Assembly (NCBI GenBank): GCA_002429615.1
Contig: DJAN01000074.1
Span: 465 to 22,973 of the forward strand
Length of the DNA stretch: 22,509 bases
Origin: Lysobacteraceae bacterium UBA6001
GTDB taxonomy: Bacteria > Pseudomonadota > Gammaproteobacteria > Xanthomonadales > Xanthomonadaceae
Reading direction: 5' to 3'
A program made the position numbers and the translations under genes. Positions 3,502 to 15,937 of this stretch are shown here, in pieces. Within the stretch, counting starts at the first letter, position 1, and each line of letters begins with the position of its first letter. Under the pieces are notes generated by a model, which was not told the origin of the DNA, made no database searches, and saw only the letters and a program-made list of their open reading frames with translations.

Positions 3502-4158
3502 ATGACGATCGATTTCTCCCAGGCCCGCGAAAAGATGGTCGAGCAGCAGATTCGTCCCTGGGACGTTCTGGACCTGCGCGTCCTCGACGTCCTGGCGCGC
3601 CTGCCCCGCGAGGCTTTCGTGCCGCAGGCCTACCAGGCCCTGGCCTATGCCGACCTGGAGATTCCGCTGGCGGGCGGCCAGAAGATGATGAAGCCGGTGG
3701 TGGAAGGCCGCATGCTGCAGGCGCTGGATCTGCAGCCGGGCGAAGACGTGCTCGAGATCGGCACCGGCAGCGGTTTCGCCACCGCCTGCCTGGCCGCGCT
3801 GGGCCGCGAGGTGGTCAGCCTGGAAATCGACCCGGCGCTGGCCGCCGGGGCGCGTGCCGCGCTGGACGCCACCGGCCTGGGCAGCAATGTGCGCATCGAA
3901 ACGGCCGATGTATTCGGTTGGCAGAGTGAGCGTCGCTTCGATGCCATCTGCGTGACCGGCGCCGTCGATACGCTGCCCGCGCAGTTCCTGCAGTGGTTGC
4001 GCCCGGAGGGCCGCCTGTTCGTCGTGCGCGGTCACGATCCGGTGATGGAAGCCGTCCTTGTCCACGCCGATGTCAACGGTCCGCGCGTCGAGTCGTTGTT
4101 CGAGACCGATATCGCCTACCTGCGCGGCGCGGCCCCCACGCCTCAGTTCAAATTCTGA
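3502..4158 (+). CDS. pcm: Protein-L-isoaspartate O-methyltransferase-like protein (Pcm)
   Basis: S-adenosylmethionine-dependent methyltransferase of the isoaspartate repair family, 218 residues from the ATG at 3502. A TTG five codons upstream is less likely; GGAT at 3489-3492 lies at a workable ribosome-binding distance. The SAM motif I is VLEIGTGSGFATACLA (residues 83-98). The substrate loop is unusual. Classic enzymes read G-x-GQTIS-x-P before motif I, whereas this one has GGQKMMKP at residues 58-65, so the usual Thr-Ile-Ser is absent. It may therefore be a relative with another or weaker activity. The gene ends 16 bases before tolC, a pairing known from the S. maltophilia pcm-tolCSm operon. 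Family certain, exact reaction uncertain. Confidence 0.85.
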   Translation: MTIDFSQAREKMVEQQIRPWDVLDLRVLDVLARLPREAFVPQAYQALAYADLEIPLAGGQKMMKPVVEGRMLQALDLQPGEDVLEIGTGSGFATACLAALGREVVSLEIDPALAAGARAALDATGLGSNVRIETADVFGWQSERRFDAICVTGAVDTLPAQFLQWLRPEGRLFVVRGHDPVMEAVLVHADVNGPRVESLFETDIAYLRGAAPTPQFKF

Positions 4159-4174
4159 ATCCCAAGGAAGCCCT

Positions 4175-5536
4175 ATGATTCGCCGAACCCTCGCCCTGGC
4201 GCTGGCCGCCGCCCTGTCACCGATGGCCGCCCAGGCCGCCGATCTGTTGCAGGTCTACGAAATGGCCCGCAATGGCGATCCCCAGCTGGCGTCGGCGGAG
4301 TCGACCCGGCTGTACAACAAGGAAGGCCAGGTGCAGGCCATGGCCGCGCTGCTGCCGCAGTTGGATGGCACCGCGTCGTTGACGCGTACGCACACCAACA
4401 ATGACGACCCGGTCGGCTCGACCACCAGCAAGACCCGCCGCTACTCGGTCAATGGCACCCAGACCGTGTTCAACTGGGCGCAGTTCGCCAACCTGAAGGC
4501 CGAGAAGGACGTCAGCAAGGCCGCTGACTTCACGCTCGAATCGGCCAACGACGACCTGATCGTGCGCACCTCGGCCGCCTACTTCAACGTGCTGGTCGGC
4601 ATCGAGTCGCTGGCTGCCGCCGAGACCAACGAAGCCGCGGCGAAGAAACAGTTCGACTATGCCGACAAGCGCCTGGAAGTCGGCCTGGCCCCGATCACCG
4701 ACGTGCACGAAGCGCGCGCCGAGTACGACCAGGCCCGCGCCAACACCATCCTGGCCCGCAACAACCTGAAGGACTACTACCAGGCGCTGACCGAACTCAC
4801 CGGCCAGCCGGTCACCGGCCTGCGCGCGCTGCCGGAAGAGTGGCGCCCGGAAGTGCCGGCCCAGTACAGCAACGTCGATGAGCTGGTGACCACCGCCGTC
4901 AGCGAGAACCCGGCGCTGAAGGCGCAGGGCCTGCAGGTGAGCGCAGCCGAGTCCAGCGTGTCGGCCGCCCGTGCCGGCCACTATCCCACCCTGGCCCTGG
5001 GCGGCAGCTGGGGCAAGGGCGCGACCTGGGGCGATGCGGTCGGTTCTGACGGCATCATTCCGGAGAGCAACTCCATCGGCCTGACCCTGTCGGTGCCGAT
5101 CTTCTCCGGTGGCGCCACCCAGTCGCGTGTTCGCCAGGCCCTGGCCCAGCGCGACATCCAGCAGGACACCTTCGAGCAGCAGAAGCGCGCCCTGGACCGC
5201 AACACCCGCAATGCCTACCAGACCGTGGTCGCCGGCATCAGCGAAGTGGAAGCCCGCCGCCTGGCGGTGGTCTCGGCGCAGGCCGCGTTCGACGCTTCGC
5301 AGGTCGGCCTGGAAGTCGGTACCCGCACCGTGCTGGACGTGGTGCAGAACCAGCGCACCCTGTTCGCCGCGCAGGTGGACTACGTGCAGGCCCGCTACAA
5401 CTTCCTGCAGAACCGTCTGCTGCTGGCGCAGGCCACCGGCAAGCTCGACATCGCCGACCTGCAGGACGTCAACCGCATGCTGACCCAGGATGCGGAGTCC
5501 AAGCTGCAGAACGCCAACGACGCGCTGCAGCAGTAA
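4175..5536 (+). CDS. tolC: TolC outer-membrane efflux channel
   Basis: Trimeric outer-membrane channel for RND pumps and type I secretion, 453 residues, close to E. coli TolC. The start is the ATG at 4175, which has an ideal AAGGAAG four bases upstream; an open frame further upstream overlaps pcm and is not used. The signal peptide MIRRTLALALAAALSPMAAQA should be cut before ADLL. The mature protein has the two repeated OEP halves, with long Ala/Gln-rich helices and conserved pieces such as LTGQPVTGL and VGTRTVLDVVQNQRTLF. It follows pcm by 16 bases and is closed by a terminator. In the matching S. maltophilia cluster it works with SmeOP. The peptide exporter at 10.6-14 kb may also use it (inference). 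Confidence 0.94.
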   Translation: MIRRTLALALAAALSPMAAQAADLLQVYEMARNGDPQLASAESTRLYNKEGQVQAMAALLPQLDGTASLTRTHTNNDDPVGSTTSKTRRYSVNGTQTVFNWAQFANLKAEKDVSKAADFTLESANDDLIVRTSAAYFNVLVGIESLAAAETNEAAAKKQFDYADKRLEVGLAPITDVHEARAEYDQARANTILARNNLKDYYQALTELTGQPVTGLRALPEEWRPEVPAQYSNVDELVTTAVSENPALKAQGLQVSAAESSVSAARAGHYPTLALGGSWGKGATWGDAVGSDGIIPESNSIGLTLSVPIFSGGATQSRVRQALAQRDIQQDTFEQQKRALDRNTRNAYQTVVAGISEVEARRLAVVSAQAAFDASQVGLEVGTRTVLDVVQNQRTLFAAQVDYVQARYNFLQNRLLLAQATGKLDIADLQDVNRMLTQDAESKLQNANDALQQ

Positions 5537-7935: not shown

Positions 7936-9255
7936 TCAGGGCGCGTCGCGCCGATCCTCGTTGAGCAGCGCGCCGGCGTACAGGCCGGCCAGCATCAGGG
8001 TCAGCCCACCCCAGAAGCTCGAATAGAACGCCAGGTGGGTGTTGAGCGGGAACACCGTGACCAGCAGGGCCACCATCGCCGGACGCGCCTGCTCGCGCGC
8101 CGCCGGGCTGGAGTAGCGCCACGCGCGCCAGGCCTGCGCCACGCCGGCCAGCCACAGGAACAGGCCCAGGAAGCCGGTCTCGGCGAGGATTTCCAGCACG
8201 ATCTGGTGGGCATGGAAGGCCGGGCCTTCACCCCACGCCGGCGCCTGCCCGGGCGTCGGGTCGCATTGCGGATAGGCCTCGCGGAAGCCGCGCGCACCGA
8301 CACCATTGAGCGGATGCTCGCGCACCATGCACAGCGCGGCCGACCAGATCTGCGCGCGCCCGGACAAGGCGGCATCCACGCCGCCGATGCCGCCACCGAT
8401 CAGCGTGGTCGTGCGCAGCACGCGCTCATGCACCTGCGGCGACACGTTGAACAGCACCACCACCCCGACCACCGCGGCGGCGGCCACGCCGAGCATGCCG
8501 CGCCAGCCGATCAGCCGCCCGCCGGAAAACAGCAGTACCAGCGCATAGGTGATCCACGCCGCGCGCGCGCCGGCCATCACCACCACCGCGCCACAGGCCA
8601 GCGCCACCAGCAGCCACGCCACGCGGCCGCGCGCGGCGGCGGCGAACAGCAGGAACGGCGACAGGCTGGCCAGGGTCTGGCCGAACTTGAGGTTGCACGG
8701 GCCGAGCAGGCCGCTCAGGCGGTCCACCGCGGCGATTTCCTGCGGCGTGCACAGGCCATGGCCGTTGATCGCCCATTTCAGCTGGTCCATCGACCAGAAC
8801 AGCGGACTGGTGCCCCAGAGCGCCTGCAGCAAGGCATCGACCGTCCATATGCCGCCGATGATCGCCAGCCCCGCGAAGGTGCGACGCCGCCGCACCGGAT
8901 CCGCTACCGCGATCGCGCACAGCCACATGAAAGGCAGGTAACGCAGATCGGTCAGCGACTTGCGCAGCGCCACCGGCACATCGATGGCGTCGAAGGCCGA
9001 CAGCAGTTCGGGCAGCCAGTAGGCGAAGAACAGCACGCTGGTCAGTGCCCAGGCCGCGCCGCTGAGCAGCTGCGTGCCGCCGCGGAAGCGCCGCCGCAGC
9101 AGGCGCCAGATCGCGAACACCGCGCCCAGCGACAGCACGGTCTCGGCCAGGCCCGGCGCCGGCCACAGCGCGACGAATACGATCACCCACACCGGCGCCC
9201 AGCGCCCGGCATGCGGCGGCAGCGGCGCGATGACGTCAGCGGGAGCGTTCGGCAT
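7936..9255 (-). CDS. O-antigen ligase/polymerase-family membrane protein (Wzy_C/WaaL-like)
   Basis: Polytopic inner-membrane protein of 439 residues with about ten to twelve predicted membrane segments. The long periplasmic loop before the last segments carries the family pattern: SGRAQIW, then HPLNGVGARGF, then HAHQIVLEILAETG. This family either ligates undecaprenyl-linked O-antigen to lipid A-core or polymerises glycans. The neighbours waaA, lpxL and a glycosyltransferase favour an LPS role, but the two activities cannot be told apart here. Its start overlaps the end of the glycosyltransferase gene by 20 bases, so the two are co-translated. It is the last gene of the minus-strand operon. 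Confidence 0.82.
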   Translation of the reverse strand: MPNAPADVIAPLPPHAGRWAPVWVIVFVALWPAPGLAETVLSLGAVFAIWRLLRRRFRGGTQLLSGAAWALTSVLFFAYWLPELLSAFDAIDVPVALRKSLTDLRYLPFMWLCAIAVADPVRRRRTFAGLAIIGGIWTVDALLQALWGTSPLFWSMDQLKWAINGHGLCTPQEIAAVDRLSGLLGPCNLKFGQTLASLSPFLLFAAAARGRVAWLLVALACGAVVVMAGARAAWITYALVLLFSGGRLIGWRGMLGVAAAAVVGVVVLFNVSPQVHERVLRTTTLIGGGIGGVDAALSGRAQIWSAALCMVREHPLNGVGARGFREAYPQCDPTPGQAPAWGEGPAFHAHQIVLEILAETGFLGLFLWLAGVAQAWRAWRYSSPAAREQARPAMVALLVTVFPLNTHLAFYSSFWGGLTLMLAGLYAGALLNEDRRDAP

Positions 9256-10348
9256 AGACCTTCAGGGTGCTGTCCTGCATCGCCTGCAGGGTATAGGGAA
9301 TCCGCGCCAACGGCGTCGGCGGCTGTTGCAGCAGCAGCGCAGCCTGGTGCGCCAGCGCGTCTTCATCGAACGGCGCCACCGCTCCCTGCGGCTGGAACTC
9401 GGCAAGCAGCTCGCCCACGCCGCCATGCGCCCAGCCCAGTACCGGACGACCCACCGACAGCGCCTCCAGCACGGTGCGGCCGAATGCCTCGGGCTTGCGC
9501 GACAACTGCAGCACCAGGTCGCTGGCCGCATAGGCCTCGGCGATGCGCGAGGTCGGTTCGGTGAAGGCCACCGCGTCGGCCACGCCCAGCCGCGCGGCCT
9601 CGCCTTCCAGTTCGCGCAGGTAATCCTCGCGACCCGGCTCGCGTGCCCCGGGCAGCCACAGCCGCGCGGCGATGCCCTCGGCGCGCAGCCGCGCCAGCAG
9701 GCGCAGGCCATCGGCATGGCCCTTCAGGCGCGTGCCACGCCCGGGCAGCAGCAGCAGCGGCCCTTCAGCATCCAGCGCCGGCGCCTGCGCCCGCGCCCAG
9801 GCGCGCGCTTTCGGGTCGGGCTGCAAACGGCGCGGGAATTGCGCCATGTCGATGCCACGCGGGATCGTGCGCAGCTTGTGCGGGTCGGTCGCGGGGTAAT
9901 GCCGCAGCACGTAGTCCTGCACGGTGCGCGATACGCAGATCACGCGCTCGCCATAGGTCATCACCGCGCTGTAGCGCCCGGGCGAATTGAGGCCATGCAC
10001 GGTGGTGATGAAGCGCGGCCGCAGGTCGGCCGACATGCCTCGCAGCGCATACCAGCCCAGCCAGGCCGGCAGGCGCGAGCGTGCGTGGACGATATCGGCC
10101 CCCAGCTCGGCGAACAGCCGGCGCAGCGCGGGCACATGGCGCAGGGTCAGCAGGGATTTGCGGCCGATATCGAGGGTGACATGCTCGGCGCCGCTGGCCA
10201 GCAGCGGCTCGACCAGCCGACCGCCGGCCGAGACCACGACCGCGCGGTGCCCGGCACGGACCAGTGCCTGGGCGATCTCCAGCGTGGAACGTTCGACGCC
10301 GCCGGAATGCAGGGCCGGCAGCAGCTGCACCACGGTCAGGCGGTGCAT
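9236..10348 (-). CDS. Family-4 glycosyltransferase, probably LPS core
   Basis: Cytoplasmic or membrane-associated retaining glycosyltransferase with the GT-B fold, 370 residues. The N-terminal domain begins with VVQLLPALHSGGVERST, whose Gly-Gly loop is typical of GT4 enzymes. The C-terminal domain has the donor-site basic residues in RGTRLKG (204-210) and the EX7E motif, Glu287 and Glu295, within KPEAFGRTVLEAL. The sugar and acceptor are not predictable, but the position between a zf-CHCC protein and an O-antigen ligase-like protein suggests lipopolysaccharide core or another surface glycan. It starts 10 bases after the zf-CHCC gene and overlaps the ligase start. Confidence 0.85.
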   Translation of the reverse strand: MHRLTVVQLLPALHSGGVERSTLEIAQALVRAGHRAVVVSAGGRLVEPLLASGAEHVTLDIGRKSLLTLRHVPALRRLFAELGADIVHARSRLPAWLGWYALRGMSADLRPRFITTVHGLNSPGRYSAVMTYGERVICVSRTVQDYVLRHYPATDPHKLRTIPRGIDMAQFPRRLQPDPKARAWARAQAPALDAEGPLLLLPGRGTRLKGHADGLRLLARLRAEGIAARLWLPGAREPGREDYLRELEGEAARLGVADAVAFTEPTSRIAEAYAASDLVLQLSRKPEAFGRTVLEALSVGRPVLGWAHGGVGELLAEFQPQGAVAPFDEDALAHQAALLLQQPPTPLARIPYTLQAMQDSTLKVYAERSR

Positions 10349-10626: not shown

Positions 10627-12723
10627 TCAGCCCGGCACCGCCCCGTCGGCCAGCGTGCCCGGCCGGATTTCCTCCACGATGCGCCCCCCGTCCATGACCA
10701 GGATGCGGTCCGCGCTGGCGATGGTTTCCGGCCGGTGGGCCACGATCAGCCGGGTCAGGCGCAACGCCCGCACCGCCTCGCTGACCTGGTGCTCCCGGGC
10801 CACGTCGAGATGGCTGGTCGCCTCGTCCAGCACCAGCACGCGCGGGCGCCGGTACAGGGCGCGGGCCAGGATCAGCCGCTGCTTCTGCCCACCGGACAAC
10901 ACGCTGCCCATGTCGCCGATCAGCCCGTGATAGCCCATCGGCATGTCGAGGATGTCCTCGTGCACCGCCGCCAGCCGCGCCGCCTCCTCGATCCGCGCCA
11001 TGTCGTGGGCCGGATCGAAGAAACTGATGTTGTCGGCGATGCTGCCGGCGAACAGCTGGTCATCCTGCATCACCACGCCGAACATCGTGCGTGCCTGCGC
11101 CGGCCCCAGCCGCCACAGGTCCTCGCCGCCCACGCGCAGGGTGCCGGCCTGGGGCCGCTGCAGGCCGAGCAGCAGCTTGAGCAGGGTGCTCTTGCCGCAG
11201 CCGGACGCGCCGACCAGCGCCACCGACTCGCCCTCCTCCACGCGCAGGCTGCAGTCCTCCAGCACCCACGGCTCGCCTTCGGCATAACGGAAGAACACGC
11301 CCTCGGCCTGCAACGAGGCCGCCGCCGGCAGCGGGACGGCGCTGCCATGCGCGGCATCGTCGGGCGTGGTCAGCACGACATCGGCGAGCCGCTCGCCGTG
11401 CAGCCGCAGCATGCGCAGCTCCATCCATTTGTCGATCAGCGCCGACGTGCGCCCGGCGAACTGGTCCTTGTAGGCGAGGTAGGCCACCAGCATGCCCACC
11501 GAGAACACGCCGCGCAGCGCCAGCACCGCGGCGATCCACACCACCGCCACCCGCTCCAGCCCGAACACCAGCTGGCTGGCGGTGCCGAAGCCCAGGCCCA
11601 GGCGCGCGAGCCGCACTTCGGCGTTCACGGTGTCCACCATCAGGTTCTCGTAGCCGGCGCGCCGGCGCGGCTCCTCGCCGGCGATCTTCAGGCTCTGCAT
11701 CCCGCGCAGCGATTCCAGCAGATGGCTTTCCTGGCGCGCGGCGGCGACCAGCTGGCGTTCGGTCCCATCGCGCAGCGGACGGAACGCCACCAGGCGGATG
11801 ACCAGGTAGGCCAGCACCGCGGCCAGCGTCACCAGCGCCAGCTTCCAGTTGTAGACCAGCATCAGCACCAGCGTCACCACCGCCATCAGGCCATCGATCA
11901 GCGCTTCGACGAAGTTGGTCGTCAGCGTCTTCTGGATGGCCTGCACCGCACCGAGGCGGGAAGTGATGTCGCCGAGATGGCGTTTGCCGAAATAGTCCAG
12001 CGGCAACCGCAGCAGGTGGGCGAACACATTGCCCATCCATTGCAGCCCGAGCGAGGCCGACAGCTGCACCACCGTCCAGCCACGCAGCAGGCCGATGGCG
12101 ACCTGCAGCAGCAGCGCCAGGCCGAAGCCCAGCCCCAGCACCGCGAGCAGGTCGCGGTCCGCCGAGACCAGCACCTGGTCGATCACCCACTGCGAATAGA
12201 ACGGTGCCAGCACCACGAAGACCTGCAGCGCCAACGACAGCGCCAGCACCTGTGCCAGCGACGACCACAAGCCGCGCACCGGGCCGGTCAGCTGCCGCAA
12301 CGATATCGACGGCGTATCGCGCCGGGCCTGGAACTGCGGACTCGGCGTCAACTCCAGCGCGATGCCGGTGAAGTGCGCCGACACCTCCGACAAGGGCACG
12401 TGACGCTCGCCCAGCGCCGGGTCGAGTATCGTCACCTTGCCGCGCCGTACTTTCGACAGCACCACGAAGTGGTTCAGGTCCCAATGCAGGATGCACGGCA
12501 GACGCAGCTGGTCCAGCTGCGCCATCTCCAGGCGCAACGGCCGCGCCGAAAAGCCCAGGTCCTGTGCGATGCCGATCAGCTGGGCCAGCGAGGCACCCTT
12601 GAGCGAGGTGGAATAGCGCTGCCGCAGCTCAGCCAGGGTGATGGCGTGCCCATGGGCGCACGCCACCATCGCCAGCGTGGCCAAGCCACACTCGGCAGCT
12701 TCGGATTGCAGGATGGTCTTCAC
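10627..12723 (-). CDS. Peptidase C39-containing ABC exporter (PCAT, CvaB-type)
   Basis: Bifunctional inner-membrane exporter that cuts double-glycine leaders and pumps out the mature peptide. It has 698 residues in the usual three-part order. The N-terminal C39 cysteine peptidase (1-130) has QSEAAECGLA with catalytic Cys12, His85 in NHFVVL and Asp101 in ILDPA. A six-helix membrane domain spans about 150-430. The ATPase has Walker A GASGCGKST (505-513), signature LSGGQ (609-613), Walker B VLVLDE (629-634) and switch His663. All catalytic residues are present, so it should be active. The start is GTG, matching the family's spacing to Cys12. It begins 24 bases after the HlyD-type gene, and both leader-peptide genes lie just upstream. 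Confidence 0.93.
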   Translation of the reverse strand: MKTILQSEAAECGLATLAMVACAHGHAITLAELRQRYSTSLKGASLAQLIGIAQDLGFSARPLRLEMAQLDQLRLPCILHWDLNHFVVLSKVRRGKVTILDPALGERHVPLSEVSAHFTGIALELTPSPQFQARRDTPSISLRQLTGPVRGLWSSLAQVLALSLALQVFVVLAPFYSQWVIDQVLVSADRDLLAVLGLGFGLALLLQVAIGLLRGWTVVQLSASLGLQWMGNVFAHLLRLPLDYFGKRHLGDITSRLGAVQAIQKTLTTNFVEALIDGLMAVVTLVLMLVYNWKLALVTLAAVLAYLVIRLVAFRPLRDGTERQLVAAARQESHLLESLRGMQSLKIAGEEPRRRAGYENLMVDTVNAEVRLARLGLGFGTASQLVFGLERVAVVWIAAVLALRGVFSVGMLVAYLAYKDQFAGRTSALIDKWMELRMLRLHGERLADVVLTTPDDAAHGSAVPLPAAASLQAEGVFFRYAEGEPWVLEDCSLRVEEGESVALVGASGCGKSTLLKLLLGLQRPQAGTLRVGGEDLWRLGPAQARTMFGVVMQDDQLFAGSIADNISFFDPAHDMARIEEAARLAAVHEDILDMPMGYHGLIGDMGSVLSGGQKQRLILARALYRRPRVLVLDEATSHLDVAREHQVSEAVRALRLTRLIVAHRPETIASADRILVMDGGRIVEEIRPGTLADGAVPG

Positions 12724-12747: not shown

Positions 12748-14025
12748 TCACGGCGCGTCGGCTACGAGCTCGACACGGCCAGTCACGGTGTAAAGGGGTT
12801 CGAATATCCATTCGAACAGCCGCCGCTGTTCGCCGAGGATGTCCGCTTCCAGCAGCATCCCGGGATGCAGCGGCTCGTTCTTGCCATAGGCGGTGACACT
12901 CTGCCGGCCCAGCGCCACCACCACGCGGTAATAGGGCTCGCTGGCGTTCTCACCCAGCGCGCTGAGCTGCAACTCGCGCTGGCCGAGCGCGCTGCGCCCC
13001 ACCCGCCTGACCACGCCGCGCTGGTGGCCGAACTTCTGATACGGATACGCCTGATAGCGCAGCATCACACCGTTGCCCGGCGCGACGAAGCCGATCGCCC
13101 GGCTGGGCACCCACAGCTCGGCCTCCAGCGTGGCATCGGAAGGCACCAGCACCATCAGCGGCTGCCCGGCCTGTACCGCCTGCCCCACCTTGACCAGCTG
13201 CGTGGCGACCATGCCATCGATGGTGGCGGTGATCGCCTGCGCGCCGCGTGCATCGGTCTCCACCTGCTCCTGCGCCAGCTCGGCGAGCGCGCGGCGATGC
13301 TCCGCGCGCGCGGACTGCCGCTGTGCCGGCAACTCCGCCAGCGCCTGATCCAGCTGCGCGATCGCGCGCACGCCACTGGCCGCGGTACGGCGCATGGCCT
13401 GCAGCTGGGCGGCGTAATCGAGCACGGTGGCCTGCTGCTGTTCCACCTGCGAGGCGCTGACATAGCGATCCTGCTGCAACTGCTGCAGGCGCGCCAGCGA
13501 TTGCCGGGCCAGCGCCAGCGCATCCTCGCGCACCTGGATTTCCTCCACGACCTGCGCCTGCTCCTGCTGCATCGCCTCGCGTTGCGCGCGCAGGCCGCGC
13601 GACTGCGTATCCAGCACGTCCTCGCGTGCCACCTGGGCAGCGGCCAGTCCGTCGCGACGCTCGGTCAACCGGTTCGCAAGCGCCGCGATGGCATCGGTGC
13701 CACCGCCCGTCGCCAGCGGGGTTTCCAGGCGCAGCAGCGGCTGCGCGGCGCGTACCTGGCCGCCCTCGTCGGCGTGCAGCTGCGCGACCACGCCGGCCAC
13801 CGGCGCCACCACCGTCACCGCACCGCGCACCGGCACCAGCTGGCCGATCACGCTGGTACGCCGTGTGTAGGTCGCCAGCAGTACGAAGGACAACACCAGC
13901 GCCGCGGTGACCGCGGCGAGCAACGCCAGCACCTTCGACGACAACGGCTGCGCCAATGCGATGCCGCCCAGCCAGGTATCGCGCCGGGACGCCAGCACTT
14001 CTTCGCGGAAGAGGTCACCACTCAT
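12748..14025 (-). CDS. HlyD/CvaA-type membrane fusion protein of the peptide exporter
   Basis: Periplasmic adaptor for type I secretion that joins the PCAT to an outer-membrane channel. From the ATG at 14025 it has 425 residues; a GTG three codons upstream overlaps the AGGTG ribosome site and is disfavoured. A cytoplasmic tail (MSGDLFREEVL) precedes one membrane segment at about 29-52, then a lipoyl-like half, a long Ala/Gln/Glu-rich coiled-coil hairpin (about 110-250), the second lipoyl half (GMVATQLVKVGQAVQAGQPLMVL) and a beta-barrel end. This is the standard CvaA/HlyD order. It is the first gene of a two-gene export operon with the PCAT and lies just beyond the peptide terminator at 14050-14078. 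Confidence 0.9.
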   Translation of the reverse strand: MSGDLFREEVLASRRDTWLGGIALAQPLSSKVLALLAAVTAALVLSFVLLATYTRRTSVIGQLVPVRGAVTVVAPVAGVVAQLHADEGGQVRAAQPLLRLETPLATGGGTDAIAALANRLTERRDGLAAAQVAREDVLDTQSRGLRAQREAMQQEQAQVVEEIQVREDALALARQSLARLQQLQQDRYVSASQVEQQQATVLDYAAQLQAMRRTAASGVRAIAQLDQALAELPAQRQSARAEHRRALAELAQEQVETDARGAQAITATIDGMVATQLVKVGQAVQAGQPLMVLVPSDATLEAELWVPSRAIGFVAPGNGVMLRYQAYPYQKFGHQRGVVRRVGRSALGQRELQLSALGENASEPYYRVVVALGRQSVTAYGKNEPLHPGMLLEADILGEQRRLFEWIFEPLYTVTGRVELVADAP

Positions 14026-14049
14026 TGCGCGCACCTGCCAGGGGGCATG

Positions 14050-14095: not shown

Positions 14096-14284
14096 TCAGC
14101 ACAGAGCCAGCGCGAGGAGCTTCAGCTTGACGACAGCCGCCACGCCCAGGGCAACGGCGCCACCGACGGCCAGCGCACCAACGAGGGCGAAGCCGCCCGC
14201 ATTCGGACGCGGCGGATAGCAATTGATCGGACGACGGCCCGCACCGTTGACGGCGGCGATTTCGGCGTTGGTCAGCTCACGCAT
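14096..14284 (-). CDS. Double-glycine-type leader peptide, bacteriocin/microcin-like (62 aa)
   Basis: Secreted peptide precursor of 62 residues. The leader MRELTNAEIAAVNGA lines up position for position with the colicin V leader (Leu4, Glu8, hydrophobic 9, Val12, Gly14, then Ala15 in place of Gly). The C39 peptidase should cut after Ala15. The predicted mature part has 47 residues: a polar, Pro-rich start with Cys22, then a Gly/Ala-rich hydrophobic helix with two AxxxG motifs (37-41, 43-47), and the end KLKLLALALC with a terminal Cys62. The two cysteines could form a disulfide. GAGGA lies 7 bases upstream of the ATG. Class and target are unknown; antibacterial activity is inferred from the exporter context. 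Confidence 0.85.
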   Translation of the reverse strand: MRELTNAEIAAVNGAGRRPINCYPPRPNAGGFALVGALAVGGAVALGVAAVVKLKLLALALC

Positions 14285-14401: not shown

Positions 14402-15187
14402 TCATCGTTGGATATCCTCTTCCATTGGAAATTCCTTACACGCTGTCGCGCAGGCGCGACACACCACTGCCCACTGCACCACAAACGCCATCAGCAGCAG
14501 CAGCAGCGCGGGCATCAGCACCCGCGAGTAGGGAACCCAGCCCATCCACTCCATCGCCAGATAGACACGACCGAAATAGACCCAGGGCAGGTAGAACCCC
14601 ACCGCAGACAGGCCCAGGTCCATATGGCGCCCCATGCCGAACAGACGTGCGATGCCGCCCGGCCGCATGCCCAGCATGGCGAGGGGAAGGGGAATGCGGC
14701 CGCGCATGCGCACCTCGCCGATGTACCACGACCACCGCGCCAGCAGGTTCCACCACAGGGAGATCGACAGCGAGACGAATGCCACCTGGACAATGCCGGC
14801 GCCCGCCAGGATCCAGGCCAGCGGCCAACGTGCCAGCAAAGGCCGTATCAGCAGGTTCGCCTCTTCATCCAGCGCGGGCGAATGCCACAGCGTGGCGGTG
14901 ATGTCGGCCGCGGCGGCCACGACAAAGAACACCGCGCCGTACCAGGCCAGCCGCCGCAAGCGACCCGCGGCGATGCGTCGTGGTAGTCGCCGCGCCACGA
15001 TGGCGCTCCCACATACGCATGCGGCCGCAAGCAGCACCCAGCTCGTCGGGACCTGTGCGCTGGGCAGGAACACCAGGCACGCCGCCACCAGTGCCGCCAC
15101 CAGCAGCAGACGCCCACACCACAGGTAGGCGGAGGCATCGGCGCAAAGCCGCCGCCCGGAGGCGGCGGCAGATTGCTCAGGCTTCAC
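14402..15187 (-). CDS. Multi-pass membrane protein coupled to the lipobox leader peptide
   Basis: Unrecognised inner-membrane protein of 261 residues with about six membrane segments (near 25-42, 48-65, 79-98, 123-147, 190-212, 223-244). A conserved-looking stretch is ADITATLWHSPALDEEANLL (93-112), in which Asp-x2-Thr and Glu-x-Asn recall small DUF5658-type membrane proteins; that link is tentative. The loop between segments 4 and 5 is basic. Translation starts at a GTG that overlaps the TGA of the upstream 45-aa peptide gene (GTGA), so the two are translationally coupled. Sitting in a peptide-export locus, it could be an immunity protein, an accessory to peptide maturation, or a sensor. No function is claimed. 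Confidence 0.75.
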   Translation of the reverse strand: MKPEQSAAASGRRLCADASAYLWCGRLLLVAALVAACLVFLPSAQVPTSWVLLAAACVCGSAIVARRLPRRIAAGRLRRLAWYGAVFFVVAAAADITATLWHSPALDEEANLLIRPLLARWPLAWILAGAGIVQVAFVSLSISLWWNLLARWSWYIGEVRMRGRIPLPLAMLGMRPGGIARLFGMGRHMDLGLSAVGFYLPWVYFGRVYLAMEWMGWVPYSRVLMPALLLLLMAFVVQWAVVCRACATACKEFPMEEDIQR

Positions 15188-15321
15188 TCGTCTGCCGGCT
15201 TGTCGCCGCGGCGCACTGGCTTGGTATGCGCACAGCCACTGAGCAGCAATGCAGCGACCACCACAAATGGCAACAGCCCGCCACCGACCTGCTCGACTTC
15301 TTCGTTCGTCAACTCACGCAT
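15184..15321 (-). CDS. Double-glycine leader peptide with embedded lipobox (45 aa)
   Basis: A 45-codon gene. The leader MRELTNEEVEQVGGG matches the colicin V-type pattern and shares its first six residues with the 62-aa peptide. After Gly14-Gly15 come a hydrophobic stretch (LLPFVVVAA) and the sequence LLLSGC, a standard lipobox with Cys30, then AHTKPVRRGDKPADE, a short charged tail. It can thus be read as a C39 substrate (30-residue product after Gly15) or as a tiny lipoprotein. Its N-terminus is acidic, unlike a Sec signal peptide. AGGAG lies 8 bases upstream of the ATG. Its stop overlaps the GTG of the membrane-protein gene. The ribosome site, shared leader and coupling make it a real gene; its role is unknown. 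Confidence 0.82.
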   Translation of the reverse strand: MRELTNEEVEQVGGGLLPFVVVAALLLSGCAHTKPVRRGDKPADE

Positions 15322-15574: not shown

Positions 15575-15937
15575 ATGGAACATGATCTTGGAAACCGGAT
15601 CAGGGGGGCACGAAGAATCGCCGGCATCACGCAAGCGGAGCTTGCTTCCATGCTGCGCGTCAGCCGCAGCGCCGTGGCGAACTGGGAGGGTGCCAGCGGC
15701 ATCTGGCCGGCGAGCGCACGCTTGTTGTCGATCGCGACACTGACCGGCGTGTCATACGAGTGGCTGGCCACTGGGCGCGGCGTGGCCAGCGATGCGACCG
15801 AGGGCTTGCCGGCGGTGCGTGGCGAGCTGATTGATGATCCGCAGGAGCTGCGCATGCTGCGCGCGTTCCGCGGCTGCCGGGTGCCGGTGCGGCGCGCGCT
15901 GGTGGACATGGCCGAGGCGCAGCGCAACCGGCGCTAG
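15575..15937 (+). CDS. XRE/Cro-family transcriptional regulator
   Basis: DNA-binding protein of 120 residues from the ATG at 15575, which has AGGAGAA just upstream; the open frame continues further upstream but without a good start. The HTH_3 domain covers about residues 5-62: LGNRIRGARRIAGITQAELA, then the recognition helix VSRSAVANWE, and ends with VSYEWLATGRG, typical of lambda-repressor-like proteins. A charged tail of about 50 residues follows, with no recognisable ligand domain. It is divergent from the leader-peptide operon and is its likely local regulator (inference). A REP-type pair separates its end from maeB. Confidence 0.85.
   Translation: MEHDLGNRIRGARRIAGITQAELASMLRVSRSAVANWEGASGIWPASARLLSIATLTGVSYEWLATGRGVASDATEGLPAVRGELIDDPQELRMLRAFRGCRVPVRRALVDMAEAQRNRR

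Follow-up and report, generated by a model that had tools for sequence, protein, structure and literature searches.

A C39-type double-glycine leader and a lipobox joined in one small peptide family at a PCAT locus of a Lysobacteraceae bacterium

Can a peptide of 45 residues carry the signals of two export routes at once, and if so, which of them would shape its product? Export by a PCAT and maturation as a lipoprotein are regarded as distinct routes, each with its own signal. The question is raised by a small gene in a stretch of 22,509 nucleotides from Lysobacteraceae bacterium UBA6001 (contig DJAN01000074.1; the whole stretch is called the window here), where the initial annotation had described a 45-codon gene with a good ribosome site encoding both a C39 leader and a lipoprotein box. 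We confirmed this description. The minus-strand gene has AGGAG 5' of its ATG, and the 45-residue translation of 15321-15184 consists of MRELTNEEVEQVGGG, LLPFVVVAALLLSG and CAHTKPVRRGDKPADE in that order: the leader of 15 residues ends in VGGG and gives way to a hydrophobic run, LLLSGC and, last, a tail of another 15 residues. The features of the window used below are as follows.

4070-5536, TolC-family gene, within the window
10627..12723, minus strand, PCAT of 698 aa, C39 peptidase plus ABC transporter (Pfam Peptidase_C39, 121.2 bits; ABC_membrane; ABC_tran)
12748..14034, minus strand, HlyD-type periplasmic adaptor (Pfam HlyD_3, 67.4 bits)
14096..14284, minus strand, second leader peptide of 62 aa, MRELTNAEIAAVNGA followed by G, in the same leader register with GA; a similar peptide occurs in the sister species G002
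14402..15187, minus strand, 261-aa membrane protein, candidate immunity or partner protein, whose GTG start overlaps the TGA of the peptide gene (GTGA)
15184..15321, minus strand, GG-leader/lipobox peptide of 45 aa (open reading frame and translation, TIGR03949, profile searches)
15187..15231, minus strand, 15-residue tail AHTKPVRRGDKPADE, with Ala, not Asp, as +2 residue (translation)
15232..15243, minus strand, lipobox codons L27-S28-G29-C30 (sequence; strict lipobox in 21 of 24 members)
15277..15321, minus strand, leader MRELTNEEVEQVGGG, with a C39 cut predicted after G15 from the residues at -15, -12, -7 and -4
15575-15937, plus strand, HTH gene (Cro/CI-like), divergent and upstream of the operon, candidate regulator

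Each of the two signals is well formed. According to the sections of PMC7018657 consulted, PCATs recognise hydrophobic residues at positions -4, -7, -12 and -15 relative to the GG cut, and with a cut after G15 these positions are occupied in the window peptide by V12, V9, L4 and M1, respectively. The leader scored 24.2 bits against NCBIfam TIGR03949 (cut-off 21.5) and 23.1 bits, again above the cut-off, when the model was run on genomes; over 149 genomes this leader model gave seven matches above its cut-off, and reading their sequences revealed a lipobox only in that of the window. LSGC follows residues 14-27, which have a mean hydropathy of 2.5, the arrangement of a lipobox after a hydrophobic stretch. 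The short positive n-region of lipoproteins is absent, the leader having a net charge of -3. Pfam returned no match at E <= 0.1 for this peptide or for the second, 62-aa peptide.

Relatives of the peptide are few. A single-sequence search found one, P0002, at 82% (P0003 is the same protein with a longer start), while a five-sequence profile, A1, recovered 24 proteins at E <= 8.7e-5, the next match standing at 0.29, where ordinary lipoproteins begin. A precomputed Pfam domain was attached to none of these 24; P0027 and P0028 were named class IIb bacteriocin at source, and the other named hits 'hypothetical protein'. On genome contigs, A1 placed the family at a minimum of three loci, one in Cognatazoarcus halotolerans and two in Pseudoxanthomonas. 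When 297 genomes of the host family were searched with the peptide, 22 gave a match at E <= 0.05; close members were the window's own, G167 (68%) and G018 and G091 (48%), the remaining 18 matches being weak or partial. The A2 profile (21 rows), run on 369 genomes of the class, added one near-full-length member in G614, which belongs to a different family of the same class, and among 150 genomes of the Cognatazoarcus family a full-length member was present in G760 itself only. In a wide scan, 331 of 395 genomes matched at E <= 0.1. Of the matches listed, four are full-length members; the others were left uncounted, being partial and directed to leaders of other peptides or to hydrophobic or lipobox parts in other frames, and those in G713, G481, G763, G803, G813 and G817 were likewise partial and uncounted. 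Plasmid records searched with P0023 gave no match at E <= 1. The six genomic copies are thus those of the window, G018 and G091 (both Pseudoxanthomonas), G167 (Luteimonas), G614 and G760 (Cognatazoarcus, locus L044), and with lineages taken from these copies the family is, as far as sequence can tell, rare but scattered.

Within this family the two signals are kept together, which bears out the main point of the initial annotation. Among 24 distinct members, GG is present in 23 and the cysteine in all 24, counts that should be read knowing that the sequences are related and that the profile used to find them contains both motifs, which favours co-conservation and under-counts relatives with a single signal. 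These members are 21 of the 24 A1 hits plus the copies of G091, L044 and G614; P0003, P0013 and P0016, which repeat P0002, P0011 and P0014 with a longer start, were not counted, and 11 of the 24 were trimmed to the leader start (P0020, P0021, P0026-P0032, L044 and G614), the start of the metagenome ones being assumed. By a strict and a loose pattern, the lipobox was found in 21/24 and 23/24, respectively. The A2 alignment, which holds 21 of the members (without P0020, P0012 and G614), has L4, G14, G15, G29 and C30 as its invariant residues. At the leader positions, -12 is Leu in every member and -4 is V, I or L in 23, while -7 is mixed (V, I, L or M in 13, A or T in 11); the +2 residue after the cysteine is A, S or V throughout. 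Free loss of GG or of the cysteine, the behaviour that the initial annotation had held against the union, was for the most part not observed. It occurred in part: P0020 has CG instead of GG, three members have an altered residue at -3 or -2 of the lipobox (P0015, SGGC; P0021, TGGC; P0022, GPGC), and in the sister species G002 a 45-aa frame in the aligned region upstream of the membrane-protein gene (L041, about 9030-9300) has neither GG nor lipobox. This frame is apparently an eroded copy of the lipobox peptide. G002 still has the membrane protein, the GA peptide, an HlyD-like gene and the PCAT; since the locus persists there without the lipobox peptide, the peptide is dispensable in that locus.

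A non-functional reading frame, or a lipobox that arose by accident, would also yield such a gene, and the shortness of the frame is in its favour, as is the strict lipobox that occurs once among 19 other GG/GA-leader peptides of the fetched loci (a non-random comparison, pattern-picked from the loci of several searches, in which one peptide looks like a chance frame). In shuffled cores, the mean probability of a strict lipobox with its Cys at 10-20 was 0.015, against 21/24 members, and conservation in 24 distinct sequences, with the spacing and partly the flanking genes kept, contradicts the idea, which we regard as extremely unlikely. Judged on these alignments, the double signal is real, beyond chance, and marks a small family.

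The same comparison bears on a more serious rival, namely that the product is an ordinary PCAT-secreted, bacteriocin-like peptide, cut at GG, whose unlipidated hydrophobic core of 30 residues leaves through PCAT, HlyD and TolC. LLLSGC would then be kept for the target membrane, for insertion, for a disulphide or as a decoy for lipoprotein enzymes, and the membrane protein would confer immunity. A leader, a PCAT, an HlyD and a TolC-family gene are indeed all present. However, the strict lipobox stands in 21/24 members here against 1/19 other GG/GA peptides, the succession of Leu, a small residue, Gly, Cys and then Ala looks like selection by Lgt and LspA, and the tail beyond the cysteine is short and polar. 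We consider this alternative possible but rather doubtful.

The acidic N-terminus, which the initial annotation had found unlike that of a plain Sec lipoprotein, is a property of the family. The 15 leader residues carry a net charge of -4 to -1 in 23 members and 0 in one, as opposed to +1 to +3 before the Cys in eight ordinary short lipoproteins from the same search (P0033-P0040, at E 0.29 and worse, outside the family and basic-headed by eye; P0038 was cut at an internal Met). The second serious rival holds that the peptide is a small Sec lipoprotein, with an accessory, release or immunity function, whose GG leader is a relic no longer cut by a PCAT and whose N-terminus up to G29 is removed by LspA. 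It accounts for the conserved lipobox, but a leader charge of zero or below in 24/24 members differs from that of the eight controls, and GG in 23/24 together with Leu at -12 in 24/24 would be needless in a Sec signal. The spacing of the motifs raises a further idea. Enterococcal sex pheromones are cut from lipoprotein signal peptides; here, a C39 cut after GG and an LspA cut before the Cys could free the hydrophobic 14-residue LLPFVVVAALLLSG as a signal. Two processing motifs at a near-constant distance (15-17 residues from GG to Cys in 23/24 members) agree with this, but the segment varies among hydrophobic residues, and we hold a pheromone to be very unlikely.

The window offers the machinery for a GG peptide. 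Its PCAT aligns almost over its full length with a solved bacteriocin transporter, 4ry2 (residues 5-685), which we take to be PCAT1; PADLOC gave no match at E <= 0.1. The 62-aa GA peptide has a hydrophobic, Gly/Ala-rich end and could be the main cargo of this PCAT. In Cognatazoarcus (G760, L044) the peptide gene is followed directly by HlyD and C39-ABC genes, an order that speaks against the Sec lipoprotein. Upstream of the lipobox peptide in L044 lie another GG peptide, about 1 kb away (8742-8999, plus strand), and a 159-aa frame (8965-9444, plus strand) for which NCBIfam returned no match. In G057 (L043, around 8300-8563) we noted MRELTNEEMEQVGGG, whose leader is almost that of the window with an unrelated, Cys-rich core; a near-identical leader on an unrelated core implies that the leader is common to different cargoes.

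The association with a PCAT is less regular in the other genomes. A C39 match is present in 7/7 genomes tested (those of the six copies and G002), and the PCAT stands beside the lipobox peptide in two of the six genomic copies, the window and G760. In G091, G167 and G614, the C39-ABC genes lie on contigs other than that of the peptide. No PCAT was found in G018 (completeness 100): its sole C39 match, a frame of only 230 aa, is FapD-like (FapD was the best hit, with 139.9 bits against a cut-off of 330) and begins, by eye, like a signal peptide. The peptide genes of G018 and G091 differ at only 2 of 138 bases, so that a loss of the PCAT in G018 may be recent; for the same reason, conservation cannot separate PCAT loss from PCAT-free function in G018. 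Either the PCAT was lost or left unassembled there, or the peptide works without it. In G167 (L038, 9788-9922, minus strand) the peptide gene and a lolCE-family gene for lipoprotein release (TIGR02212, above cut-off) point away from each other, a neighbourhood that is probably accidental. For the Sec lipoprotein, then, count the gene retained in G018 where no PCAT was found, the four of six genomic copies that have no adjoining PCAT and, if not an accident, the lolCE-family neighbour. With the leader evidence against it, we judge this reading unlikely.

The gene that overlaps the end of the peptide gene encodes the 261-aa membrane protein. In G018, G091 and G614 the lipobox peptide is immediately followed by a homologue, which brings the peptide/membrane-protein pair to four loci including the window, against two for the PCAT/HlyD association; G167 and G760 gave no homologue at E <= 0.001. 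We saw nine genes of this membrane family in their genomic setting (those of the window, G002, G018 and G091, two in G614 and three in G498), and P0005, P0006, P0007 and P0009 are further family proteins outside these nine. A leader peptide adjoins the gene in 8/9 places: the lipobox peptide beside four, the GA peptide beside that of G002, GG peptides without a lipobox beside two of those in G498 (one divergent) and, beside the third gene of G498, a precursor-like frame (by eye) together with an ATP-grasp peptide maturase (E 7.5e-55, below the curated cut-off). No leader peptide was seen beside the second G614 gene. The nine-row alignment A4 shares D95, T99, H102-S103-P104, E109, N111, Q134, R207 and E213, with CSP replacing HSP in 3/4 of the further copies (G498, G614). 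The copies read have the motif D...T..[HC]SP.L..E.N. Pfam gave no match at E <= 0.1 for the window protein, and the best Pfam match over the nine, E 0.0095 in one member, was not taken as real. A model built from nine sequences is weak (mean pLDDT 66.9) and found no PDB match at E <= 0.001; on both grounds we draw no function from it.

By position, the membrane family is a candidate for a factor tied to leader peptides generally, which would suit a role in immunity or in peptide handling, and the 261-aa protein is the likely candidate for the immunity or partner protein of the peptide. This arrangement lends something to the bacteriocin-like reading, since many bacteriocin-immunity pairs show this gene order, with the peptide ahead of the membrane protein, and the same membrane family adjoins GG peptides without a lipobox in G498. 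It makes the self-protection role that the initial annotation had entertained for the peptide less likely: the membrane protein, which adjoins several kinds of leader peptide, is the better immunity candidate, and pattern scans of the G018, G091 and G614 loci showed no other leader peptide to protect from. An immunity lipoprotein was not favoured on the same ground of the adjoining membrane protein, nor was a release lipoprotein of the colicin type, as a PCAT system needs no lysis.

In the reading that we prefer, with a probability of about 0.4, the gene would encode a GG-leader peptide that matures into a miniature lipoprotein. As cargo of a PCAT it would lose its leader at GG, receive a lipid and be retained as a lipopeptide of 16 residues, and the membrane protein would serve as its immunity or partner protein. 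Firstly, the C39 domain of the PCAT would bind the leader and cut after G15. Secondly, the remainder, beginning directly with the hydrophobic segment, would be a lipoprotein signal peptide without the usual charged head, and the transporter would place it across or into the inner membrane. Thirdly, Lgt would lipidate C30 and LspA remove LLPFVVVAALLLSG, yielding the 16-residue lipopeptide CAHTKPVRRGDKPADE. As there is no Asp at +2, this lipopeptide would go to the outer membrane and may act at or from the cell surface, in a bacteriocin-like manner or in signalling. We favour trimming by the PCAT followed by lipidation because this route uses both conserved signals, and because trimming leaves exactly a headless lipoprotein signal. 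Lgt and LspA act in the periplasm, which the cargo of a type I system normally bypasses; for this reason the second step has no precedent known to us. Counting against the two-step route are the PCAT that adjoins only 2/6 copies and was not found in G018, the three altered lipoboxes, the CG of P0020 and the loss in G002, and the bacteriocin-like and Sec readings are serious rivals to it. We entertain rather tentatively that this constitutes a second lipoprotein route, in which the PCAT takes the place of Sec: it would trim the leader and pass the bare lipobox peptide on to Lgt and LspA, and the surface lipopeptide so made would serve against cells or between them. In a bolder form of the PCAT-lipoprotein reading, the ribosomally made core would mimic a lipobox and keep the lipoprotein enzymes of target cells occupied.

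The peptide resembles several known systems in part. GG-leader peptides, class II microcins and class IIb bacteriocins (TIGR03949, lactobin A/cerein 7B) are alike in leader type, adjoining PCAT and HlyD and short hydrophobic core, whereas the core of the window peptide has a conserved lipobox and a polar tail; to our knowledge no GG peptide with these two has been described. Bacterial lipoproteins, the substrates of Lgt and LspA, share the hydrophobic stretch ending L-[S/G]-G-C, Ala at +2 and the short polar tail, but start with a short basic n-region, where the window peptide has an acidic N-terminus of 15 residues bearing a C39 leader. In the parts consulted of PMC5380434, the Cdz system of contact-dependent inhibition in Caulobacter and its Cdz-like set offer small peptides with a leader ending G[G/A/S], a type I exporter, a cell-associated product and a membrane immunity protein; the Cdz-like proteins have 60-151 residues and glycine zippers, unlike the 45-residue window peptide, which has a lipobox and no GxxxG in its core and so falls outside that set as those parts define it. 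The nap island of Neisseria, as given in the parts of PMC11798529 consulted, likewise has short GG peptides and a C39 peptidase in a Gram-negative locus, but there the C39 protein is NapP, the channel is NapF and three peptides are cationic; the PMC11798529 text holds no word beginning lipoprotein or lipid. The union of a GG leader with a lipobox was absent from the portions consulted of PMC8386478, PMC3482391, PMC5380434, PMC11798529 and PMC7018657 ('lipoprotein' occurs once in PMC5380434, outside those portions), and no description of it was found in literature whose coverage leaves out most subscription papers. None of the three elements, leader, transporter or lipobox, is new by itself; the literature covered gave no account of their union in one conserved peptide.

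The preferred reading and the Sec and bacteriocin-like rivals each predict a different product. A small family with both signals at a near-fixed spacing, and with almost no annotation, makes the idea of a PCAT feeding the lipoprotein pathway directly testable, and if lipidation depends on the PCAT, this would be categorically new. A lipopeptide with its membrane protein would also form a simple two-gene unit in which to look for inhibition or signalling.
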